This document shows positions 2,742-12,343 of a stretch of 64,000 bases of DNA, in pieces. Below the pieces are notes generated by a model, which worked only from the letters and a program-made list of their open reading frames with translations, did not search any database and had not been told where the DNA came from. A program made the position numbers and the translations under genes. This stretch comes from a bacterium (GTDB lineage Bacteria > Cyanobacteriota > Vampirovibrionia > Gastranaerophilales > Gastranaerophilaceae): contig JAAVBM010000123.1 of assembly GCA_014803505.1 (NCBI GenBank), positions 1 to 64,000 on the forward strand, given 5' to 3'. How positions within the stretch are numbered: the first letter of the stretch is position 1; each line of letters begins with the position of its first letter.

Positions 2742-4361
2742 ATGAGCAACTTACAATTTCAAAATGATTTAGACAAATTAGTGGAGATTTTACCCGATAG
2801 AATCAGACAACATGTTTCATACGGTCGTATGGAAGACGTGATAGAAATTGTTTTAGACATCGGTCGCCCTCCGGAAATAAGACATGCTGACGGCAAAATA
2901 GAATATCTTGATACTGCCGATGTAACTTATAATGACATCTCATATATCACATCAAGAGTTCAAGAATTCACCTCAGATAATCGTTCAGGAATCCCCGGAA
3001 CCTTACACAGAATCAGTGCCATTCGTAACAGACAAGGTAAAGTTGTCGGATTAACCTGCAGAATCGGTAGAGTTGTTACAGGAACTATTTCCTGCATTCG
3101 AGACATCTGTTTACAAAATAAAAGTATATTATTCCTTGGCAGACCCGGTGTTGGTAAAACAACAAAATTAAGAGAAATATCTAGACTTGTTGCTGATGAT
3201 CTTGGCAAAAGAGTTGTTATAGTTGATACATCAAATGAAATTGCCGGTGATGGAGATACTCCGCATCCTGCAGTCGGACATGCCAGAAGAATGCAAGTTA
3301 GACAACCTGAATATCAAAAAGATATTATGATTGAAGCTGTTGAAAACCACACTCCTGAAGTCATTGTTGTTGACGAAATTGGTACCGAAGCAGAAGCTCA
3401 AGCCGCAAGAACAATTGCTGAAAGAGGTGTAATGCTTATTGCAACTGCACACGGAAACAGCCTCGAAAGCTTAATAAAGAATCCAACGTTATCAGATTTA
3501 GTCGGCGGTATTCAATCCGTAACTTTGGGAGACGACGAAGCCAAACGTCGCTCTTCACAGAAAACTGTATTGGAAAGAGAGAAACAGCCGACTTTCGATA
3601 TCGTTATTGAAATTTTAGACAGAAATACATTGGCAGTATACAAAGATACAACAGAAGCGGTTGATTATATCTTACGTGGCTGGCCTATCAGACCTGAAAT
3701 ACGTAAAGTAGATAAAACTTACGATTTCGCACCACCTCAAGAACCTGTTCCATCAAGAGTTCCTAATGTTATTGACAAAATCAATGCTCTTGATAGCAAA
3801 ATTGAGCACCCTGAAAGTTTAAAATTCAGCTTCTCAAGACAAAAATATGTTGAAGATATCAAAAAATTCAAAAAGATTTATCTTTATGCAGTATCAAGAA
3901 GTATTGCAGAAAAAGTTATTGAACGTCTCGATTTAAATGCTGAAATAACAAGAAATCTTGATGATGCTGATATCGTAATTGCTCACAAAAACTTTGTTAA
4001 AGGTGGAGCCAAAGTATTGAGTACAGCAGAAGAAAGTCATATACAAATATTTTACGTTAAAACAAATTCAATGGCACAAATCCAAAAAGTTATAAAAGAA
4101 GCACTGGATATTGCCGAACTTAATGAAAAACAAACATTTTATGACATTACAGAAAAAGCTCTAGACGAAGCAAAATCTGCAATTGATAAAATTCTTGCAG
4201 GAGCAAAAGACATAGAACTAAAACCGCAAAACCAGCATATTAGAAAACTTCAACACGAACTTGTTGAACAGCATAATCTTGAAAGTACATCCATAGGCGA
4301 AGGCGATGAACGTCATTTACGAATCGTTGGTGGTATGGATTACGAAGAAAAACTCGGTTAA
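2742..4361 (+). CDS. Ycf45-like AAA ATPase with R3H domain
   Basis: Single-stranded nucleic-acid-binding ATPase of the cyanobacterial/plastid Ycf45 type; the cellular role is not settled. The ATPase core has Walker A GRPGVGKTT near residue 133 and Walker B VIVVDEIGTEAEA near residue 208, and resembles the SpoIIIAA-type fold. The C-terminal 40 residues have an R3H pattern (H, then S-x-S-x-G and DERHLRI), which binds single-stranded nucleic acid. A linker of about 200 residues separates the two. Translation starts after GAAAGG. It stands alone between groESL and a minus-strand operon. The family is typical of Cyanobacteria and relatives, so it is one of the best lineage markers in the window. 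Confidence 0.85.
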   Translation: MSNLQFQNDLDKLVEILPDRIRQHVSYGRMEDVIEIVLDIGRPPEIRHADGKIEYLDTADVTYNDISYITSRVQEFTSDNRSGIPGTLHRISAIRNRQGKVVGLTCRIGRVVTGTISCIRDICLQNKSILFLGRPGVGKTTKLREISRLVADDLGKRVVIVDTSNEIAGDGDTPHPAVGHARRMQVRQPEYQKDIMIEAVENHTPEVIVVDEIGTEAEAQAARTIAERGVMLIATAHGNSLESLIKNPTLSDLVGGIQSVTLGDDEAKRRSSQKTVLEREKQPTFDIVIEILDRNTLAVYKDTTEAVDYILRGWPIRPEIRKVDKTYDFAPPQEPVPSRVPNVIDKINALDSKIEHPESLKFSFSRQKYVEDIKKFKKIYLYAVSRSIAEKVIERLDLNAEITRNLDDADIVIAHKNFVKGGAKVLSTAEESHIQIFYVKTNSMAQIQKVIKEALDIAELNEKQTFYDITEKALDEAKSAIDKILAGAKDIELKPQNQHIRKLQHELVEQHNLESTSIGEGDERHLRIVGGMDYEEKLG

Positions 4362-4546: not shown

Positions 4547-7504
4547 CTAAAGCGCTAAACCATTCATTTCACAATAAGTCGACAAAATCTTACGCTTATC
4601 TTCTATTTTTTCCTTAAGATAAGGATTTTTTGTTGAACCTACAACAAGTTCCATAGATTTATCGTACATCTTAACCGCACCCTTTAAGTATTCAATCTGA
4701 GTTTGAGACTGAACAGTCCCTAATTCTTGATAATAGGTACCGTAGATATAATAAAGTTTTGATAATAAATCATTCATACTATATTTTTTAGCAAGAATCA
4801 TTGCTGATTCAATATTTATTTTGGCAGTTTCAAAATCAGAAATTTCCATATAAGCTTTAGCCAAAAGCATCTTTAATAATACTATAAAATAAGTGTTATT
4901 AATTTTAGGATTTTGTGCAATCTCCAATGCTTGAGTCGCAATATCTATAGCATTTTTAGGCGATTCAGTAATGATAGTTGCTTCAGCTATCAAGTACCAA
5001 CATAGCAAAGCTCCTATTGCAATTTTTTCTTTTGCAAAATAAGATACTTGCTCATTATATATTTCAACAGCACGTTTTGCTTGCTGTGAATCTTTAAATA
5101 TTTTACCTAAAAGCGCTTTTAATATATTTTTTGTGAAATTATCGCCTGTATTATTTGCAAATGTAACAGCATCAAATAAGAACTCACGTAATTCACCATA
5201 ATCTTTACACAAGAATTTATTAACTACATAAGTAAGATTCCAGCGAGATAAAGTTTCAGCATCCATTACATCTGCTCTATAAACCCTATCAATCTCGGAT
5301 AATAATTCCTCCGAAGTCTTAAAATTACCTTTCATCGTATTTGCATAAGCTAAAACCAATTTCGTCTTGCAGACTAACAATGGATCATTTATTTTATGCT
5401 TTTCCAACAAATTAAACAATTGAGTTAAAACTTCAAAACTTCTGTCATTTCCCTGAAGTGCAAGAGCTGTTGCAAGAATCAGATATACTCTAAACCAAGT
5501 ATCATACAAAAATTCCAATGGTATTGATTTATTCATTTTAGGTCGTGAAATATACGAATCTAAAACTGGAAGAATATCGTTATCCACAAGATTAACAATC
5601 TCGCCACAATTACCAATATCTAACAAAGACAACAGTTTTGTACTTTTAACCATAGCACATTCTAGCTCTTGTCCTTCTTTCATTTTTTTCAAAACATTAT
5701 CAACACATTCAGCATTACCATAAGAATTACCTGTTTTTTTACAACATAAAGCCAAATATCCTAAAAGTTCAATTTCTTTTTCTTCATTATTTTCTGATTT
5801 AGCATTCGCAATAGCATCTGGTAAATATTCCAAAGCTTCTTCTGCATCATACTCCGTTAGTAATTTACCTAATCTCTCGCTTATATTATATCTGATATTT
5901 AAGGTTTCATTTTCATTAAACTCATTTAATAAAGCCAAACATTGTTTTTGAGAAATTACATAAAGATTTATGTCTCCAATATAAGAAGCCAATCGTGTTG
6001 TTTTTGTCCATATATCAAATGCCATACGATTTTCTTTAAGATTATGAGCAATCATTGCCATTGTTGCATTCGTATTTAGAGTAAAAATACTTAAAGCTTT
6101 ACCTATTTTGACATTTATATCTTCAAAAGAAAGATCTCGAGTTATATTTTTCAAAATAGTTTCCCACAACAACAAGTTATTAAATTCATAATAACTTTCA
6201 TTATACGGTCTAACAAAATTACTTTTTACAAGATACGAAACTAATTCATTAAATTCCGTAGTCTTATACCCAAAAACCTCTTTCAGCAAAGCTAAATTTA
6301 ACTTATTACCCAAAATTGCAGCACCGCAAAGAAGCTTATGAGCATCAGGATTAATTTTTTTTAGCGTTAAAAGTCTTTCTTTAATTAAGGTTGAAAAATC
6401 ATACGTGATAAGAAAAGCTTTATCTGCTATTTGACAATCAAAACAATAACTGACTGCCTGCTCTACAAATGCAGGATTGCCCTGACTTTTTTCAAGGATA
6501 ACCTCTTTTTCTCGATTAGTAACATAAGTTCCGGCATCACCTTTAAGCTTAAGATTTTTTTCAAGCTCTGAAACAGTAGAAGCAGCCAAACATATATCCT
6601 GATAACATTTAATATCCCTATTTTCGAATCCAAAAATACTGTTAACAGGTCTAGGCTTATTATACAAAATAATAAACTTCAAATTTTTCCAATTTGAATC
6701 CTTTTGCATGAAATTTGTAAAAAATTCAATTGAAAATCCATCAATAAAATCAAAATTATCAACTACAAAAATAAAACGTCCGGTATTAGCAAATGCATCA
6801 AAAATTTTACCTAAAATACTAAAAGTTCGTCTTTTATTAATAATTATATCTTCATAATTACCATCTTTTGAGTTATAGATAAAATTCAAAAAATCACTTA
6901 CTTCACTTGCATCTAAAAACTTAAATTCATTAGCAAAAAATTTCAAAGCATCATTCTGTAAGTCTTCAGAATTTATACAATAATTAGGTAGCTTAAACAA
7001 ATCAAGAAACATATCTTGAATAACACCACCTGGAGTAAGTTGTGTTAGCGGAGTACATTTTCCAATACACCATTGCAATTTTTCATTAGAAAAATGATTT
7101 ATAACAACTTTTAATAATGTAGATTTTCCAATACCTTTATCCCCTGAAATTGAAATAATCTTTTTATCTTTTAAATGAATTCCTTCAACTAAAGTATCAA
7201 AGGCTTGTTTAAAAGAATACTTTTCAGGAGAAAATTTCAACATCGAAGTTTTCGAATCAGCATCATTTTTAACCACTTTACTTAAAGAAGAGCCGCATTT
7301 TCTACATTTAGTTGCCCCTGGAAAATTCACCCCCTTACAATGAGAACAAATTTTCAATAATTGCTGCCCGCAAGATTTGCATTCTAAAGCACCGACAGGA
7401 TTAACTGTATTGCAATGAGAGCATAACAACCCTGTTCGAGTTTTACAATAAGGACATTTTAAAGTCTTCTCTGAAATATTTTTTTTACATACCGGACATT
7501 TCAT
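4547..7504 (-). CDS. Zinc-ribbon / P-loop NTPase / TPR signalling protein
   Basis: Not recognised as a named protein. The first 71 residues carry four CxxC pairs typical of double zinc ribbons (starting MKCPVCKKN). A P-loop NTPase follows, with Walker A GDKGIGKST at 121-129 and Walker B FIFVVDNFDF near residue 240. The remaining roughly 550 residues are helical and TPR-like. This layout resembles the zinc ribbon-AAA-TPR part of some bacterial adenylate cyclases and STAND regulators, but no cyclase or DNA-binding domain is seen. At 985 aa it is the last gene of a minus-strand unit, 8 nt after the sigma-like gene. A role as a cytoplasmic sensor or scaffold working with that factor is inference. 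Confidence 0.7.
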   Translation of the reverse strand: MKCPVCKKNISEKTLKCPYCKTRTGLLCSHCNTVNPVGALECKSCGQQLLKICSHCKGVNFPGATKCRKCGSSLSKVVKNDADSKTSMLKFSPEKYSFKQAFDTLVEGIHLKDKKIISISGDKGIGKSTLLKVVINHFSNEKLQWCIGKCTPLTQLTPGGVIQDMFLDLFKLPNYCINSEDLQNDALKFFANEFKFLDASEVSDFLNFIYNSKDGNYEDIIINKRRTFSILGKIFDAFANTGRFIFVVDNFDFIDGFSIEFFTNFMQKDSNWKNLKFIILYNKPRPVNSIFGFENRDIKCYQDICLAASTVSELEKNLKLKGDAGTYVTNREKEVILEKSQGNPAFVEQAVSYCFDCQIADKAFLITYDFSTLIKERLLTLKKINPDAHKLLCGAAILGNKLNLALLKEVFGYKTTEFNELVSYLVKSNFVRPYNESYYEFNNLLLWETILKNITRDLSFEDINVKIGKALSIFTLNTNATMAMIAHNLKENRMAFDIWTKTTRLASYIGDINLYVISQKQCLALLNEFNENETLNIRYNISERLGKLLTEYDAEEALEYLPDAIANAKSENNEEKEIELLGYLALCCKKTGNSYGNAECVDNVLKKMKEGQELECAMVKSTKLLSLLDIGNCGEIVNLVDNDILPVLDSYISRPKMNKSIPLEFLYDTWFRVYLILATALALQGNDRSFEVLTQLFNLLEKHKINDPLLVCKTKLVLAYANTMKGNFKTSEELLSEIDRVYRADVMDAETLSRWNLTYVVNKFLCKDYGELREFLFDAVTFANNTGDNFTKNILKALLGKIFKDSQQAKRAVEIYNEQVSYFAKEKIAIGALLCWYLIAEATIITESPKNAIDIATQALEIAQNPKINNTYFIVLLKMLLAKAYMEISDFETAKINIESAMILAKKYSMNDLLSKLYYIYGTYYQELGTVQSQTQIEYLKGAVKMYDKSMELVVGSTKNPYLKEKIEDKRKILSTYCEMNGLAL

Positions 7505-7512
7505 CTTAAAAG

Positions 7513-8073
7513 TTATTCTATGATATTTTTGACTTTATCCATCAATTTAAAAAGTCTTTTAGAAACTTCGGATTGAGAAATCCCCAACTCTTCAGAAATT
7601 TCTTTTTGAGTCATTCCCTTATCATAGCGCAATGTATAAATATTCAGATAATCTTTATCAGGTTCTTCTCTGTCAAGCTTAATCACTGTATCTGCAACAA
7701 ACTCAAGAACTTGTTTCTGAATAACAATATCTTCCGGAGTTTGAGGAATAGAAACAGATGAATAGTCAACACTTATCTCTGAATAATCAATCGAAGTTTT
7801 GTTATCAACAAGAACTTCTTTAGTTGACATGTAACCTGAACGGGTTCTTCTCAATCTACCCGAATCCTTAAGGACATTGATAATTGAAGTCGTAACAACT
7901 CTTTTTAAATAAGTTTCTAATGTAGCTTCAGCGTCAATAGAATTCAATATAACTACTGAACGTTTACATGTTTCATTAAAAAAGTCATCGTACAAATCTT
8001 CATTATTCGGATATTTACGGTCATTTTTTATTATCTTATCTATTAAATTAATTTTATCTTGTGTTAATTCCAC
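7513..8073 (-). CDS. Small sigma-70-like transcription factor
   Basis: A 186-aa protein whose C-terminus (about 150-186) is a clear sigma region-4 helix-turn-helix, with KEISEELGISQSEVSKRLF. An upstream stretch with TYLKRVVTTSIINVLKD looks like part of region 2. The size fits ECF-type or other small sigma factors, which direct RNA polymerase to a limited promoter set. The start codon is GTG, preceded by GAGGAAG. It sits between the TonB-like acidic protein (38 nt upstream) and the NTPase (8 nt downstream), so all three are probably co-transcribed. No classical anti-sigma factor is adjacent; one of the two neighbours may fill that role, which is inference. Confidence 0.75.
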   Translation of the reverse strand: MELTQDKINLIDKIIKNDRKYPNNEDLYDDFFNETCKRSVVILNSIDAEATLETYLKRVVTTSIINVLKDSGRLRRTRSGYMSTKEVLVDNKTSIDYSEISVDYSSVSIPQTPEDIVIQKQVLEFVADTVIKLDREEPDKDYLNIYTLRYDKGMTQKEISEELGISQSEVSKRLFKLMDKVKNIIE

Positions 8074-8111
8074 AATCTGGCTTCCTCTACTATAAGGATA
8101 TTATATCATAT

Positions 8112-11100
8112 TTAAAAATAAATTTTAAGTATAACTGTTGTACTTTCGTCATTTCCCACACTATGAGGGGCTTTAAGCACCTTTAGGTTTTGGTTAACAG
8201 TTTGTAACACAATATTATCAATTTGGGTAGAACCACTTGATGATAAGACTTTTGCAGTTTTAAATGTTCCATCTTTATCATACAAAATAGAAACCTTCAA
8301 TTGATTAGAATAAGCATACTCTGTAGCAAGCAATAAATCACTAGATAGTGATAATTTTAAAGATTTACCTACTGTTTGCAAGTATTGCTTAAATTGTGGA
8401 TTATATGAAACATAATCAGGCACTTCCCATGTTAACTTACTAACTTCAATAAATGGAGTTGAAGCCTGAGTTTTAGCTGAAGTAGCTGAATTTGCACCTG
8501 CTTGAACTGTTTGTGTTTGCTGCTTAACTTGAGGAGCAGGAGTCACAGGAGTATTTTGTTCCATATTGACAACATTTGCCTGCTCAACATCCAAAGTGTT
8601 AGCCTCTGTAACACCATAATCAGGACTTGTTGGAATAGGTTCATCTGAAATCGGTTGAGGAACATCATCGGTAGATTGTTTCATAAATTTAGAAACAGAA
8701 AAACCAATTACACCAACAACAATCAAAGATAAAATAACCCCAAGGATACCCAATCCTACAGCTTTTGAACCTTTTGAACCGGTACCAAGCCTACCAGGAG
8801 TTTGCAATAATGCAGCTCCAGGAACAGCATCTTGATTATATAAATTTTCTAACTGTTCATTACCTTCAACTTCAGGCATATCCGGATAATTTATATCAAT
8901 TGGAATTTCACCAACTTGAAACGCATTATTACTAATAACTCTTGAATTATCAACTGCAGCATATACTTTTTCTTCCGGTTCAGAAATAATATCTTCTTCT
9001 TGCTCTGTTAGAGCTTCTTCGGATTCAATCGCAACATTAGCTTCAGGAAATTCAACATCTTCAAGATTTTCATAATCAGTATCTTCCAGCCAATCCTGCT
9101 CTTGAAGTTGACCTGCATTATCTTCAGGAGTTTCAGAAACAACTGAATCTTCACTTGCAGATTCTAAAACTAACTCGTCAAAATCTTCTACAGAATTCTG
9201 CTCAAAACTTTCAGAAACAGCTACATCTTCAATTTTTTCTTCTTCTTCCTCTAAGACATCTCCATTAGCAGTTTTATTTTCTTCTTGAGTTGATGAAAAA
9301 TCTTCACTATCTAAAAATGCGGCAATATCTTCTACATCACTAGATAGCTCTACATCATCAGTCTCTAAAGATGTTTCATACTCTGAAGATAATATATCTT
9401 CATTTTCATCCTCAGTTATTGTTTCAAATATTTCTTCAGATTCAGTATTATCTATATTTTCTTCAATTGAAACGTTTTCTGATTCCAACAGAACATCATC
9501 TTCCATCAATTGCACTGATTCCAATACCTCAAGAGTTGCTTCACTATCTTCAGCATCATCGATTTCAGCATCATTATATAAATCAGCTTCAGAGTGATTT
9601 TCTTCAGATAAATCATCACTATCAATAGTTAAATCATCAGCAACAACAAGTTTATCTTCCAAATCAACAGAATCGAAACTCAAATCAGGAAGAGTTTCCG
9701 TATTATCAATGTCAAACTCTTCTACAGTAGAAATAATATCTTGTTGAACATCAGATTCTATTACATCTTGAACATCAGATTCCACATCCATATCAAGAAG
9801 CTCTTCCATCTGAATAGTATCCTCCAGAGCCATTGGTTCAGTCTCAATATGAAACACTTCTTTTTCTTCATCAGATTCTTGAGGAATAATCAAAGACTCA
9901 TCAACCATGTCAAAATCAAGAGAAGCTGGATCAGGTAAATCCATCAAATCTTCATTAGCGCCATGCTTAGATGTCAAATGTTCTAATTCTTTATCAATCA
10001 TCATATCGTTTGGAGTCATGTCTAACTCAACCAAATGCTCTTCTGAATTATCAAGATGCATATCAATATTCAAATTATCAATAGAAGATGTTCCATCATC
10101 GTTAATGTTAATAACAGATACATCAGGTAAGTCCATTCCCGGATGTTCTTCAACTTCATCTTGAAGATTAATTTCAATGCTACCATTAGCCTGAACCTGA
10201 GCATCTAAATCTGATAAATGATCCAAGTTCTCAATAAGATCTGATTCTTTTGGTGAGAATTCATTTTCAACAGTATCCATATTACTCAAATCAATTGTTT
10301 CATGTTCAATTTGCCCATATCCGATATCGTCAGAAATATCAACTTTTTGAAGCTCAGACAAATCTTTAGGCGACTCAAATTTACCGGATTCTTCAGCCTG
10401 AATATCTGCCTGTCTTTTAACTCCACTCAAATCATAAGCCGTAATATGTTCAGGTAAATTAGTTGCATCAACTTTTACTTTTTCATAATCTTTTTTATCT
10501 AAATTTTCTTGTTGGCTTTCAATATTTTTATCTATAATTTCACTAACCAAATCTCCGGAAACTGCAGCCAATTTAATAACTTCAGCAGATGCGGCACCTG
10601 CAACAGCCGTTTCGCTAACTATAGCAGCACCAGCCGCAGCAATCGTACCTGCCGCAGCAATTTCGGCAGAACCGACTAAAGCATCACCAACCATTTTACC
10701 TGAACCAGAATCAATATTATTTTCTTTTGAAGAATCCGGTTCGATATTATCATTTTGATCATCATCTACCATAAAATCATCATCAAAACCATCGAACACA
10801 GTAGACAAATCTACATCTTCGCTAGAATCAGAATCTTGAATATCAAACTCATCAAAATCAGATAACGAAGATTCAATTTCATCTTGCGCAACATCTTCTT
10901 CATTTTCCTGAACAACAAACTCAACCTCAGATTCAGAAATATCTTCTGCTACATCGAAACTTTCCTCAGCTTCTTCTACAAAATCAGAATCATAATTTTC
11001 AGAATTTTCTTCTTCTTGTTCTTCTTCACTTTTCTCTGAAGAATCTTCATCAAGTACAATATCTTCATCTTGAAGAATATCAGCAATACCTGCAGCCGGA

Positions 11101-11816
11101 ACATTTAACTTAATTCTATCAGTCAATATATGACCTACACTATTTGATAAAGTTTCAAAATTATCAAATTCCAAAACACTTTCACGTAGTGAATCACTTT
11201 GCAATAAAAGATGTAATAATTCATTAAATTCTTTTTCCGAAATATTATGATCTGCCATAGAAACAGATAATTCTCTGCCACGATACATTTCATCTTCAGT
11301 AATACCTAATGAAGTATTACCAGCAAAATTCTGCACAAATTTAATAAATTCAGAAGGAGAAACCAATTGATCTTTTTCAACAAAATAATAATCTTTGTTA
11401 GCATTAGCTTTATTGATATTTCGAGATTCAACAAACCCTAGAAATTCAGCATGTTTAAAATCTCCAGACAACTTCAAGATCATATAAACATCAGGAACAA
11501 TATTTAATTCAAAATGACTTTTTGGAATAAAAATTTGAGATTCATCAAATATAACTCTTGCATCGATATGAATATTTGGCAATAAAACATCAGCAATATC
11601 AACTTTTTCAAGAATTTTTGATATTGAATGCAAATTATGAATTTCAGAAACATCAACACCCTCAGAAGCCAAATATTTAAGCCCTAATTCAGCACCAAGT
11701 GCATTTACATACGCACGTTTTTTCAACATATCTTGAACAAAACTTCTAGACATGAATTCCGCTTCTGAAATATTGTCCTTATCAATATAAATCAATGTTC
11801 CTTGCTTATTAGTCAT
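8112..11816 (-). CDS. Giant acidic membrane protein with TonB-like C-terminus
   Basis: The start is set at 11816, not at the longer in-frame start at 11912, because a strong GGGAGGA site lies just before this ATG. The product has 1234 aa. Residues 1-190 form an unrecognised ordered domain. About 190-990 is strongly acidic (Asp, Glu and Ser rich) with an Ala-rich hydrophobic patch near 375-430. One clear membrane helix lies at about 1020-1042. A Pro/Gln/Thr linker follows, then a TonB-type C-terminal domain (DGTFKTAKVLSSSGSTQID). In ordinary TonB the membrane helix is near the N-terminus; here nearly 1000 residues precede it and, if N-in, would be cytoplasmic. It leads the operon with the sigma-like factor. 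The function is unknown; an envelope-to-cytoplasm link is inferred. Confidence 0.65.
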   Translation of the reverse strand: MTNKQGTLIYIDKDNISEAEFMSRSFVQDMLKKRAYVNALGAELGLKYLASEGVDVSEIHNLHSISKILEKVDIADVLLPNIHIDARVIFDESQIFIPKSHFELNIVPDVYMILKLSGDFKHAEFLGFVESRNINKANANKDYYFVEKDQLVSPSEFIKFVQNFAGNTSLGITEDEMYRGRELSVSMADHNISEKEFNELLHLLLQSDSLRESVLEFDNFETLSNSVGHILTDRIKLNVPAAGIADILQDEDIVLDEDSSEKSEEEQEEENSENYDSDFVEEAEESFDVAEDISESEVEFVVQENEEDVAQDEIESSLSDFDEFDIQDSDSSEDVDLSTVFDGFDDDFMVDDDQNDNIEPDSSKENNIDSGSGKMVGDALVGSAEIAAAGTIAAAGAAIVSETAVAGAASAEVIKLAAVSGDLVSEIIDKNIESQQENLDKKDYEKVKVDATNLPEHITAYDLSGVKRQADIQAEESGKFESPKDLSELQKVDISDDIGYGQIEHETIDLSNMDTVENEFSPKESDLIENLDHLSDLDAQVQANGSIEINLQDEVEEHPGMDLPDVSVININDDGTSSIDNLNIDMHLDNSEEHLVELDMTPNDMMIDKELEHLTSKHGANEDLMDLPDPASLDFDMVDESLIIPQESDEEKEVFHIETEPMALEDTIQMEELLDMDVESDVQDVIESDVQQDIISTVEEFDIDNTETLPDLSFDSVDLEDKLVVADDLTIDSDDLSEENHSEADLYNDAEIDDAEDSEATLEVLESVQLMEDDVLLESENVSIEENIDNTESEEIFETITEDENEDILSSEYETSLETDDVELSSDVEDIAAFLDSEDFSSTQEENKTANGDVLEEEEEKIEDVAVSESFEQNSVEDFDELVLESASEDSVVSETPEDNAGQLQEQDWLEDTDYENLEDVEFPEANVAIESEEALTEQEEDIISEPEEKVYAAVDNSRVISNNAFQVGEIPIDINYPDMPEVEGNEQLENLYNQDAVPGAALLQTPGRLGTGSKGSKAVGLGILGVILSLIVVGVIGFSVSKFMKQSTDDVPQPISDEPIPTSPDYGVTEANTLDVEQANVVNMEQNTPVTPAPQVKQQTQTVQAGANSATSAKTQASTPFIEVSKLTWEVPDYVSYNPQFKQYLQTVGKSLKLSLSSDLLLATEYAYSNQLKVSILYDKDGTFKTAKVLSSSGSTQIDNIVLQTVNQNLKVLKAPHSVGNDESTTVILKIYF

Positions 11817-11983
11817 TTTAAAAATCCTCCCTCTACACTTATATAGATGACACAATATAAAAAAATATTCCAAAATATTTGTAAATTTTTGTAACGATAG
11901 TTTGCAAATCAATAATAATAAGTCAAAATTGAAGCATTAGGAGTTTTATATCAAATGTGTTAAATGTGTAAGGAGGTTTTCTC

Positions 11984-12343
11984 ATGTTATCGGTCAACCC
12001 AATGTCAAGCGTTAATTTTAGAGGTGGTATTGATCTTGCAAAACCGGGTAGATTTACAAGACCCGATACCGCACAAGATCAAAATATCACAGCAGCTCAA
12101 CCTACAAAAAAGAAAAAAAGTAAAGTTTTACCTACAATATTAGGATTAGCAACAATTGCAGCGGCACTGATAGCACTACCAAAACTACTTCCAAATGCAA
12201 TTAAATCACTACCAAAAGAAAATCTTGCAAATGCAGGCATCCTGGAAAAAGCTGGACACTATACAGCTGTTGCAGGTGAATTTCTTGCAAAATACACCAT
12301 CGATCCACTAATGAATCTTTTCAAAGGCAGCAAAGCAGCCTAA
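11984..12343 (+). CDS. Small membrane protein with N-terminal VNFRG motif
   Basis: Unrecognised 119-aa protein. It opens with SSVNFRGG, a short motif also seen in variant form at the N-termini of the proteins at 18594 and 50650. A lysine-rich stretch (KKKKSK) then leads into a hydrophobic helix (about residues 46-68), and an amphipathic tail follows. A strong AAGGAGG site precedes the ATG. It is transcribed away from the acidic TonB-like gene and is followed at once by a terminator, so it is a single-gene unit. Confidence 0.65.
   Translation: MLSVNPMSSVNFRGGIDLAKPGRFTRPDTAQDQNITAAQPTKKKKSKVLPTILGLATIAAALIALPKLLPNAIKSLPKENLANAGILEKAGHYTAVAGEFLAKYTIDPLMNLFKGSKAA

Follow-up and report, generated by a model that had tools for sequence, protein, structure and literature searches.

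A conserved Gastranaerophilales operon predicted to pair an ECF sigma factor with a transmembrane anti-sigma protein carrying DUF1822 and a TonB-like domain

Why should a giant acidic membrane protein with a TonB-like end be encoded directly beside a sigma factor and an ATPase? The question is raised by three minus-strand genes in a 64,000-nucleotide stretch of contig JAAVBM010000123.1 (C123 among our contigs), here called the window, from a Gastranaerophilaceae genome assembly of 2.26 Mb in 128 contigs that is 94% complete. In order of transcription they encode the acidic protein (1234 residues; 8112..11816, ATG at 11816), a sigma factor of the extracytoplasmic function (ECF) type (186 residues; 7513..8073, GTG at 8073) and a protein with a zinc ribbon, a P-loop nucleoside triphosphatase (NTPase) domain and tetratricopeptide (TPR) repeats (985 residues; 4547..7504, ATG at 7504). 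The window coordinates give gaps of 38 nt between the first two genes and 8 nt between the second and third, and all three are uninterrupted open frames, as the first-pass annotation had it. We consider it probable that the core of this operon is an autoregulated pair of an ECF sigma factor and a transmembrane anti-sigma factor with an unusual sensor.

The sigma factor and its predicted anti-sigma partner

The sigma region 4 claimed in the first-pass annotation is borne out by the Pfam model Sigma70_r4 (PF04545; 35.6 bits, cut-off 24.1), and the sigma70-ECF model TIGR02937 scores 71.5 bits (cut-off 42.9) over residues 21-183, spanning both sigma domains. A profile of the family aligns with SigW in the PDB (5wuq_A) over 23-179, again both domains, with an E-value of 4.4e-4. 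Region 2 must be regarded as divergent, because its Pfam model PF04542, which has no match in the window's sigma factor, finds just two of 21 relatives. By its sequence the protein is an ECF (group IV sigma-70) factor, with regions 2 and 4 and without region 3. Two sigma homologues, in loci L171 and L068, have their two sigma domains set apart by very long insertions, making proteins of 607 and 296 residues.

The first-pass annotation saw no ordinary anti-sigma factor at the locus, and on this point it has to be revised: a class I anti-sigma domain is found inside the acidic protein, next to a DUF1822 domain. DUF1822, missed when the whole protein was scanned, occupies residues 10-162 (11331..11789; here, as for every operon element below, on the minus strand). 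Its PF08852 match scores 32.4 bits (cut-off 25) and covers profile positions 2-161 of 370 only. The putative anti-sigma domain follows at residues 174-245 (11082..11297), with its zinc ligands lost. An AlphaFold model of residues 1-245 has a predicted local distance difference test score (pLDDT) of 92.4 and a predicted template-modelling score (pTM) of 0.86. In VIA-align comparisons residues 174-245 of the model match MucA of the AlgU complex (Z 6.6 and 6.1) and RsiW of the SigW complex (5wuq_C; Z 7.1 over 66 residues), a value that is weak by itself for a helical bundle, as helices reach such Z by chance.

Because Z values of this size can arise by chance, the sequence was tested independently. 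When a profile of the anti-sigma family was compared with the PDB, the three best matches were RsiW (E 1.4e-6), the 'probable conserved membrane protein' 3hug_B (E 0.016), which we take to be the mycobacterial anti-sigma factor RslA, and the anti-sigma factor DdvA (E 0.045). An order-wide alignment reveals a zinc anti-sigma motif at this place, for instance HLATCESCR in L080 and HLSHCDECR in L094, which is degenerate in the window. Pfam zf-HC2 matches 14 of 28 relatives, and in L080 it lies above its cut-off together with DUF1822 and TonB_2, all in one protein. The full Hx3Cx2C motif is present in 25 of 154 homologues and absent from the window, whose genus has lost it. This motif occurs in about half of class I anti-sigma factors and is not required. 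Its absence is compatible with class I membership because members without zinc exist, such as RseA and RskA (PMC7406223). Helix 1 has a near-invariant aspartate (column D22 of alignment A4, D189 in the window) that by eye aligns with RseA D11, which is predicted to touch sigma region 4 (PMC7406223).

Both partners thus match one solved complex, the sigma profile finding SigW and the anti-sigma profile finding RsiW. By three routes (modelled fold, PDB profile and the zinc motif of relatives) the acidic protein is assigned a class I anti-sigma domain of the RsiW/MucA kind. It is likely to be the anti-sigma factor of the adjoining sigma factor, which it is predicted to bind and inhibit.

A different reading was considered for the DUF1822 domain. 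For residues 36-165 VIA-align lists Hjc, SPARDA, DpnI and NaeI, with Z up to 7.8. We do not claim a nuclease: unrelated folds commonly give Z below 8, the domain had no significant Foldseek match, and no conserved (D/E)xK could be seen by eye.

Beyond the anti-sigma domain comes an acidic linker of residues about 250-1010 (8787..11069), presumably disordered, with about 30% Asp+Glu and 2-4% Lys+Arg. A single transmembrane helix follows at residues 1019-1037 (8706..8762; Kyte-Doolittle 2.82). Exactly one strong hydrophobic segment is found in 134 of 147 homologues and, in those listed, lies about 190-260 residues from the C-terminus. The TonB-type C-terminal domain, another claim of the early annotation, was recovered by scanning the C-terminus alone: residues 1173-1234 (8115..8300) score 25.7 with TonB_C (PF03544, cut-off 24.6) and 25.0 with TonB_2 (cut-off 22). 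Our own profile finds this domain in the acidic protein of all 80 loci of the GTDB set described below. The N-terminus would be cytoplasmic, because the anti-sigma domain lies there.

One genus, g27, divides the protein naturally. Its locus L158 has a 304-residue DUF1822/anti-sigma protein without a membrane helix and then a 644-residue membrane/TonB protein with its own start, both halves upstream of the sigma gene; G188, G236 and G298 of the same genus likewise have short open frames. Because this genus splits the gene into a soluble and a membrane half, the modules are separable, as the sigma/anti-sigma model predicts.

Gene order and a predicted promoter

Conservation of the gene order in relatives had been proposed beforehand as a check on the first idea of a unit. 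The GTDB set consists of the best 80 sigma-factor relatives, which belong to Gastranaerophilales or Melainabacteria where the label is informative; three are labelled as other groups and some only as 'bacterium'. The order acidic protein, sigma factor, NTPase is kept in 80 of 80 loci, six of which are cut upstream by contig ends and lack the start of the acidic gene. Typical gaps across the set are 33-40 nt for the first and 4-20 nt for the second. The same order is found in every uncut locus of the window's genus and in 34 of 40 loci from other genera of its family (f1). Among these other genera, L169 and L184 keep the acidic protein and the sigma factor with no NTPase directly after, and L179, L180, L181 and L186 have the sigma factor alone. 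Outside the family the pair is kept in families f2, f3, f4, f5 and f7, and the full set of three in f5 (L067) and f7 (L068), so that homologues of the acidic protein adjoin the sigma gene in most loci. This conservation far exceeds chance. The operon is mostly single-copy per genome and is conserved throughout the family.

The genes past the NTPase differ between loci of the same genus, and because they vary while the order of the three is kept, the three form a unit. The strong conservation of order, taken with a conserved promoter before the first gene, indicates that this one conserved unit is probably read as a single transcript, which would tie the envelope protein to the sigma factor.

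The predicted ECF-type promoter is GGAATA-N13-TGTCATCT (11845..11871), ending 28 nt before the anti-sigma ATG. Its consensus, GGAATA-N13-TGYNNTC, is found in 120 of 144 distinct upstream regions; the boxes are 13 nt apart in every case, and none of the other spacings between 8 and 20 occurs. Shuffled sequences yield the pattern at 0.005. As the regions come from related genomes the agreement is partly shared descent; the flanking bases vary much more than the boxes. Genome-wide the pattern has four matches, the operon site and three others without evident promoter context. A stricter form gives 37 sites, spread over 33 of 59 relatives and the window's genome, nearly all at the operon, against 1 for a reversed control pattern. 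The promoter is also present in f2 and f4. None was found before the stand-alone sigma genes of family f6 and genus g34.

As a rule, ECF systems regulate themselves and share a transcript with their anti-sigma gene (PMC8103513); because of this, and because the promoter at the operon is conserved, we infer that the operon may be autoregulated by its own sigma factor. Positive autoregulation through a promoter of the GGAA type is customary among ECF sigma factors, though not universal.

Two conserved features lie just upstream. A second element, GTTACAAAAnTTTACA (11879-11894, minus strand), stands directly before the predicted promoter in the genus and near genera and is a possible regulator site. 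A small divergent gene (11984-12343, plus strand; 119 residues, beginning MLSVNPMSSVNFRGG) is found beside the operon in most loci of the genus and has no Pfam match. At the other end a plus-strand gene (2742-4361), convergent to the operon, encodes a SpoIIIAA-like ATPase with PTPase and R3H domains.

The zinc-ribbon ATPase and its relatives

The zinc ribbon, P-loop and TPR parts that had been read from the letters alone are also recognizable by other means. The protein has six CxxC pairs, the Walker A motif GDKGIGKS and the Walker B-like sequence VVDNFDFID, and an alignment of 47 sequences shows the cysteines and P-loop residues to be invariant or nearly so. In the window the domain matches fall just below the cut-offs that relatives exceed: AAA_16 scores 30.6 (cut-off 32.6; 44.1 in L068) and DZR 26.6 (cut-off 27.3; above it in relatives). 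The TPR_MalT region is weak in the window (E 3e-4) and stronger in L067 (E 1.7e-8). Walker A and B motifs with C-terminal repeats are a feature of STAND ATPases, and this protein has both.

Relatives of the ATPase in f2, f4, f5, f6 and f7 carry one domain more, of about 190 residues, placed between the zinc ribbon and the P-loop. These proteins, which come from the same taxonomic order, share with the operon ATPase a homologous zinc ribbon, NTPase domain and repeats, and differ in this domain, which is absent from the operon ATPase of f1 and from f3. By eye it resembles a class III cyclase. Its lone PDB profile match is the adenylyl cyclase CyaB, at E 1.3, and no Pfam model supports it, so that a cyclase identity can be proposed from the sequence only tentatively. 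Its distribution needs three changes on the tree, which would agree with early presence of the domain and repeated loss. Paralogues are found as well: L073 (G000:C45:1092-1343), elsewhere in the window's genome, and L074, L075 and L076. They have the zinc ribbon and a domain that the cyclase-like profile matches, and in relatives such a paralogue is about 1150-1200 residues long.

Rival readings and comparison with known systems

Is the large protein a regulator at all, or a TonB-type energy transducer or envelope-spanning structural protein, with the sigma gene adjoining for co-regulation only? We think the latter highly improbable. Its TonB_C match is above cut-off, and two ExbD genes are present in the genome. 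The first-pass annotation, which saw no ExbB/ExbD gene, was right that ExbD is absent from the locus; the two that exist elsewhere lie on another contig beside a different TonB_C gene (G000:C77:14168-15923, TonB_C followed by both ExbD genes). No Plug-domain receptor was found in the 94% complete assembly. Because the ExbD and TonB_C genes sit elsewhere and no such receptor was found, a classical TonB role is unlikely. A TonB transducer, moreover, has its anchor at the N-terminus, whereas the single helix here is at 1019-1037 of 1234 with the long linker before rather than after it, and the transducer reading leaves the anti-sigma domain unexplained. Improbable too, if less strongly so, is a switch serving conflict or defence that branched off the cyanobacterial sigma-DUF1822-caspase/CHAT systems and in which the STAND-like ATPase would sense invaders. 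P-loop/TPR proteins often do so, which counts for this reading. Within the phylum 130 of 194 genomes encode DUF1822, and in 13 of 20 cyanobacterial loci (L132-L151) it directly follows a sigma-like gene, CHASE2-CHAT genes adjoining some of them. ECF sigma and DUF1822 genes have also been recorded in caspase neighbourhoods (PMC8195603). The likeness to our operon is DUF1822 beside a sigma-70 family factor; the differences are that the sigma gene comes first and that genes for caspase, CHAT or CHASE2 proteins can lie close by. Ten cyanobacterial DUF1822 proteins gave no anti-sigma profile match and no Hx3Cx2C; such pairs are without the anti-sigma, membrane or TonB parts, and the pairing itself is already in the literature. 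Against defence, a Pfam scan of the directly neighbouring genes detects neither a caspase nor a CHAT nor another effector domain (EACC2 has no model to search), and the PADLOC library gave only weak helix-turn-helix matches, none informative. The operon, moreover, is mostly one copy per genome and kept through the family, whereas defence genes are patchy.

A narrower alternative concerns the ATPase, which could be a passenger sharing the transcript of a sigma/anti-sigma pair that acts alone. In f2, f3, f4 and parts of f1 the pair has no ATPase gene beside it, and a relative of the ATPase sits elsewhere in f2, f3 and f4; in almost all of the window's family, however, no more than about 20 nt separate the ATPase gene from the pair, whereas what lies beyond it differs between loci, and the set of three recurs in f5 and f7. 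We judge the passenger reading rather unlikely, and the opposite view, that the ATPase is part of the switch, to fall only a little short of an even chance. The first-pass annotation had the three genes form one signalling pathway. A conserved envelope/sigma unit, probably on one transcript, stands from this proposal; the place of the ATPase in it stays conjectural, separated as it is from the pair in several families.

The preferred sigma/anti-sigma reading has evidence to contend with as well, beyond the modest Z value. The window's own anti-sigma domain has no Pfam match, and the case rests on relatives. In family f6 and genus g34 the sigma gene has no adjoining anti-sigma gene. Most sigma/anti-sigma pairs have the sigma gene first, and here the anti-sigma gene is first. 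A strict-pattern search of the window's genome and relatives found no regulon beyond the operon. Among the 144 upstream regions those of f3, L067, L068 and several f1 genera lack the strict promoter, so autoregulation would not be universal.

Under the sigma/anti-sigma reading, the cytoplasmic DUF1822 and class I anti-sigma domains would at rest keep the sigma factor at the inner membrane, and the TonB_C-like domain, across the single membrane helix, would bind or sense something in the periplasm. A periplasmic signal might then weaken or cleave the anti-sigma protein, and the freed sigma factor would transcribe its own operon from the predicted promoter, plus further genes. The zinc-ribbon ATPase could serve as a second, cytosolic input, promoting release or recapture of the sigma factor.

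Such an arrangement resembles SigW-RsiW of Bacillus, and AlgU/RpoE with MucA/RseA, in its ECF sigma factor, cytoplasmic anti-sigma domain, one membrane helix, outer-side domain and neighbouring genes. It differs from them in the DUF1822 that precedes the anti-sigma domain, the acidic stretch of about 760 residues between that domain and the membrane helix, the TonB_C-like nature of the outer-side domain, and the gene order, with the anti-sigma gene first and an ATPase gene after. FecI-FecR likewise combines an ECF sigma factor and a membrane sigma regulator with a link to TonB-type envelope domains. Unlike that system, the genome here has no Plug-domain outer-membrane receptor, and the TonB_C domain is on the regulator itself. 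FecI-like systems depart from the autoregulation that is usual elsewhere (PMC8103513). In the literature searched, a single paper besides PMC8195603 mentions DUF1822, and we found no description of the DUF1822/anti-sigma/transmembrane/TonB_C architecture.

A wider conjecture, which we hold with more doubt than confidence, is that DUF1822 is a sigma-factor adaptor throughout the cyanobacterial phylum. In the non-photosynthetic branch it would have become joined to an anti-sigma domain and to a TonB-like sensor in the periplasm, and a STAND-like ATPase with a zinc ribbon would have been coupled to it. The outcome would be an envelope stress switch of three parts, gated by ATP, without parallel among described ECF systems.

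To our knowledge signalling has hardly been studied in Gastranaerophilales, which are widespread, uncultured gut bacteria. A conserved, mostly single-copy sigma/anti-sigma operon with a predicted promoter provides a defined place to begin. A giant acidic protein that previously had no function now has a likely one, through an anti-sigma domain that had gone unrecognised, and DUF1822, so far known just from the company of sigma factors, gains a testable role. The operon may also offer an anti-sigma factor with a TonB-like sensor domain, and the natural split into soluble and membrane halves in genus g27 makes it easy to test the parts separately. A so far undescribed system of envelope-to-gene signalling would in this way become directly testable.

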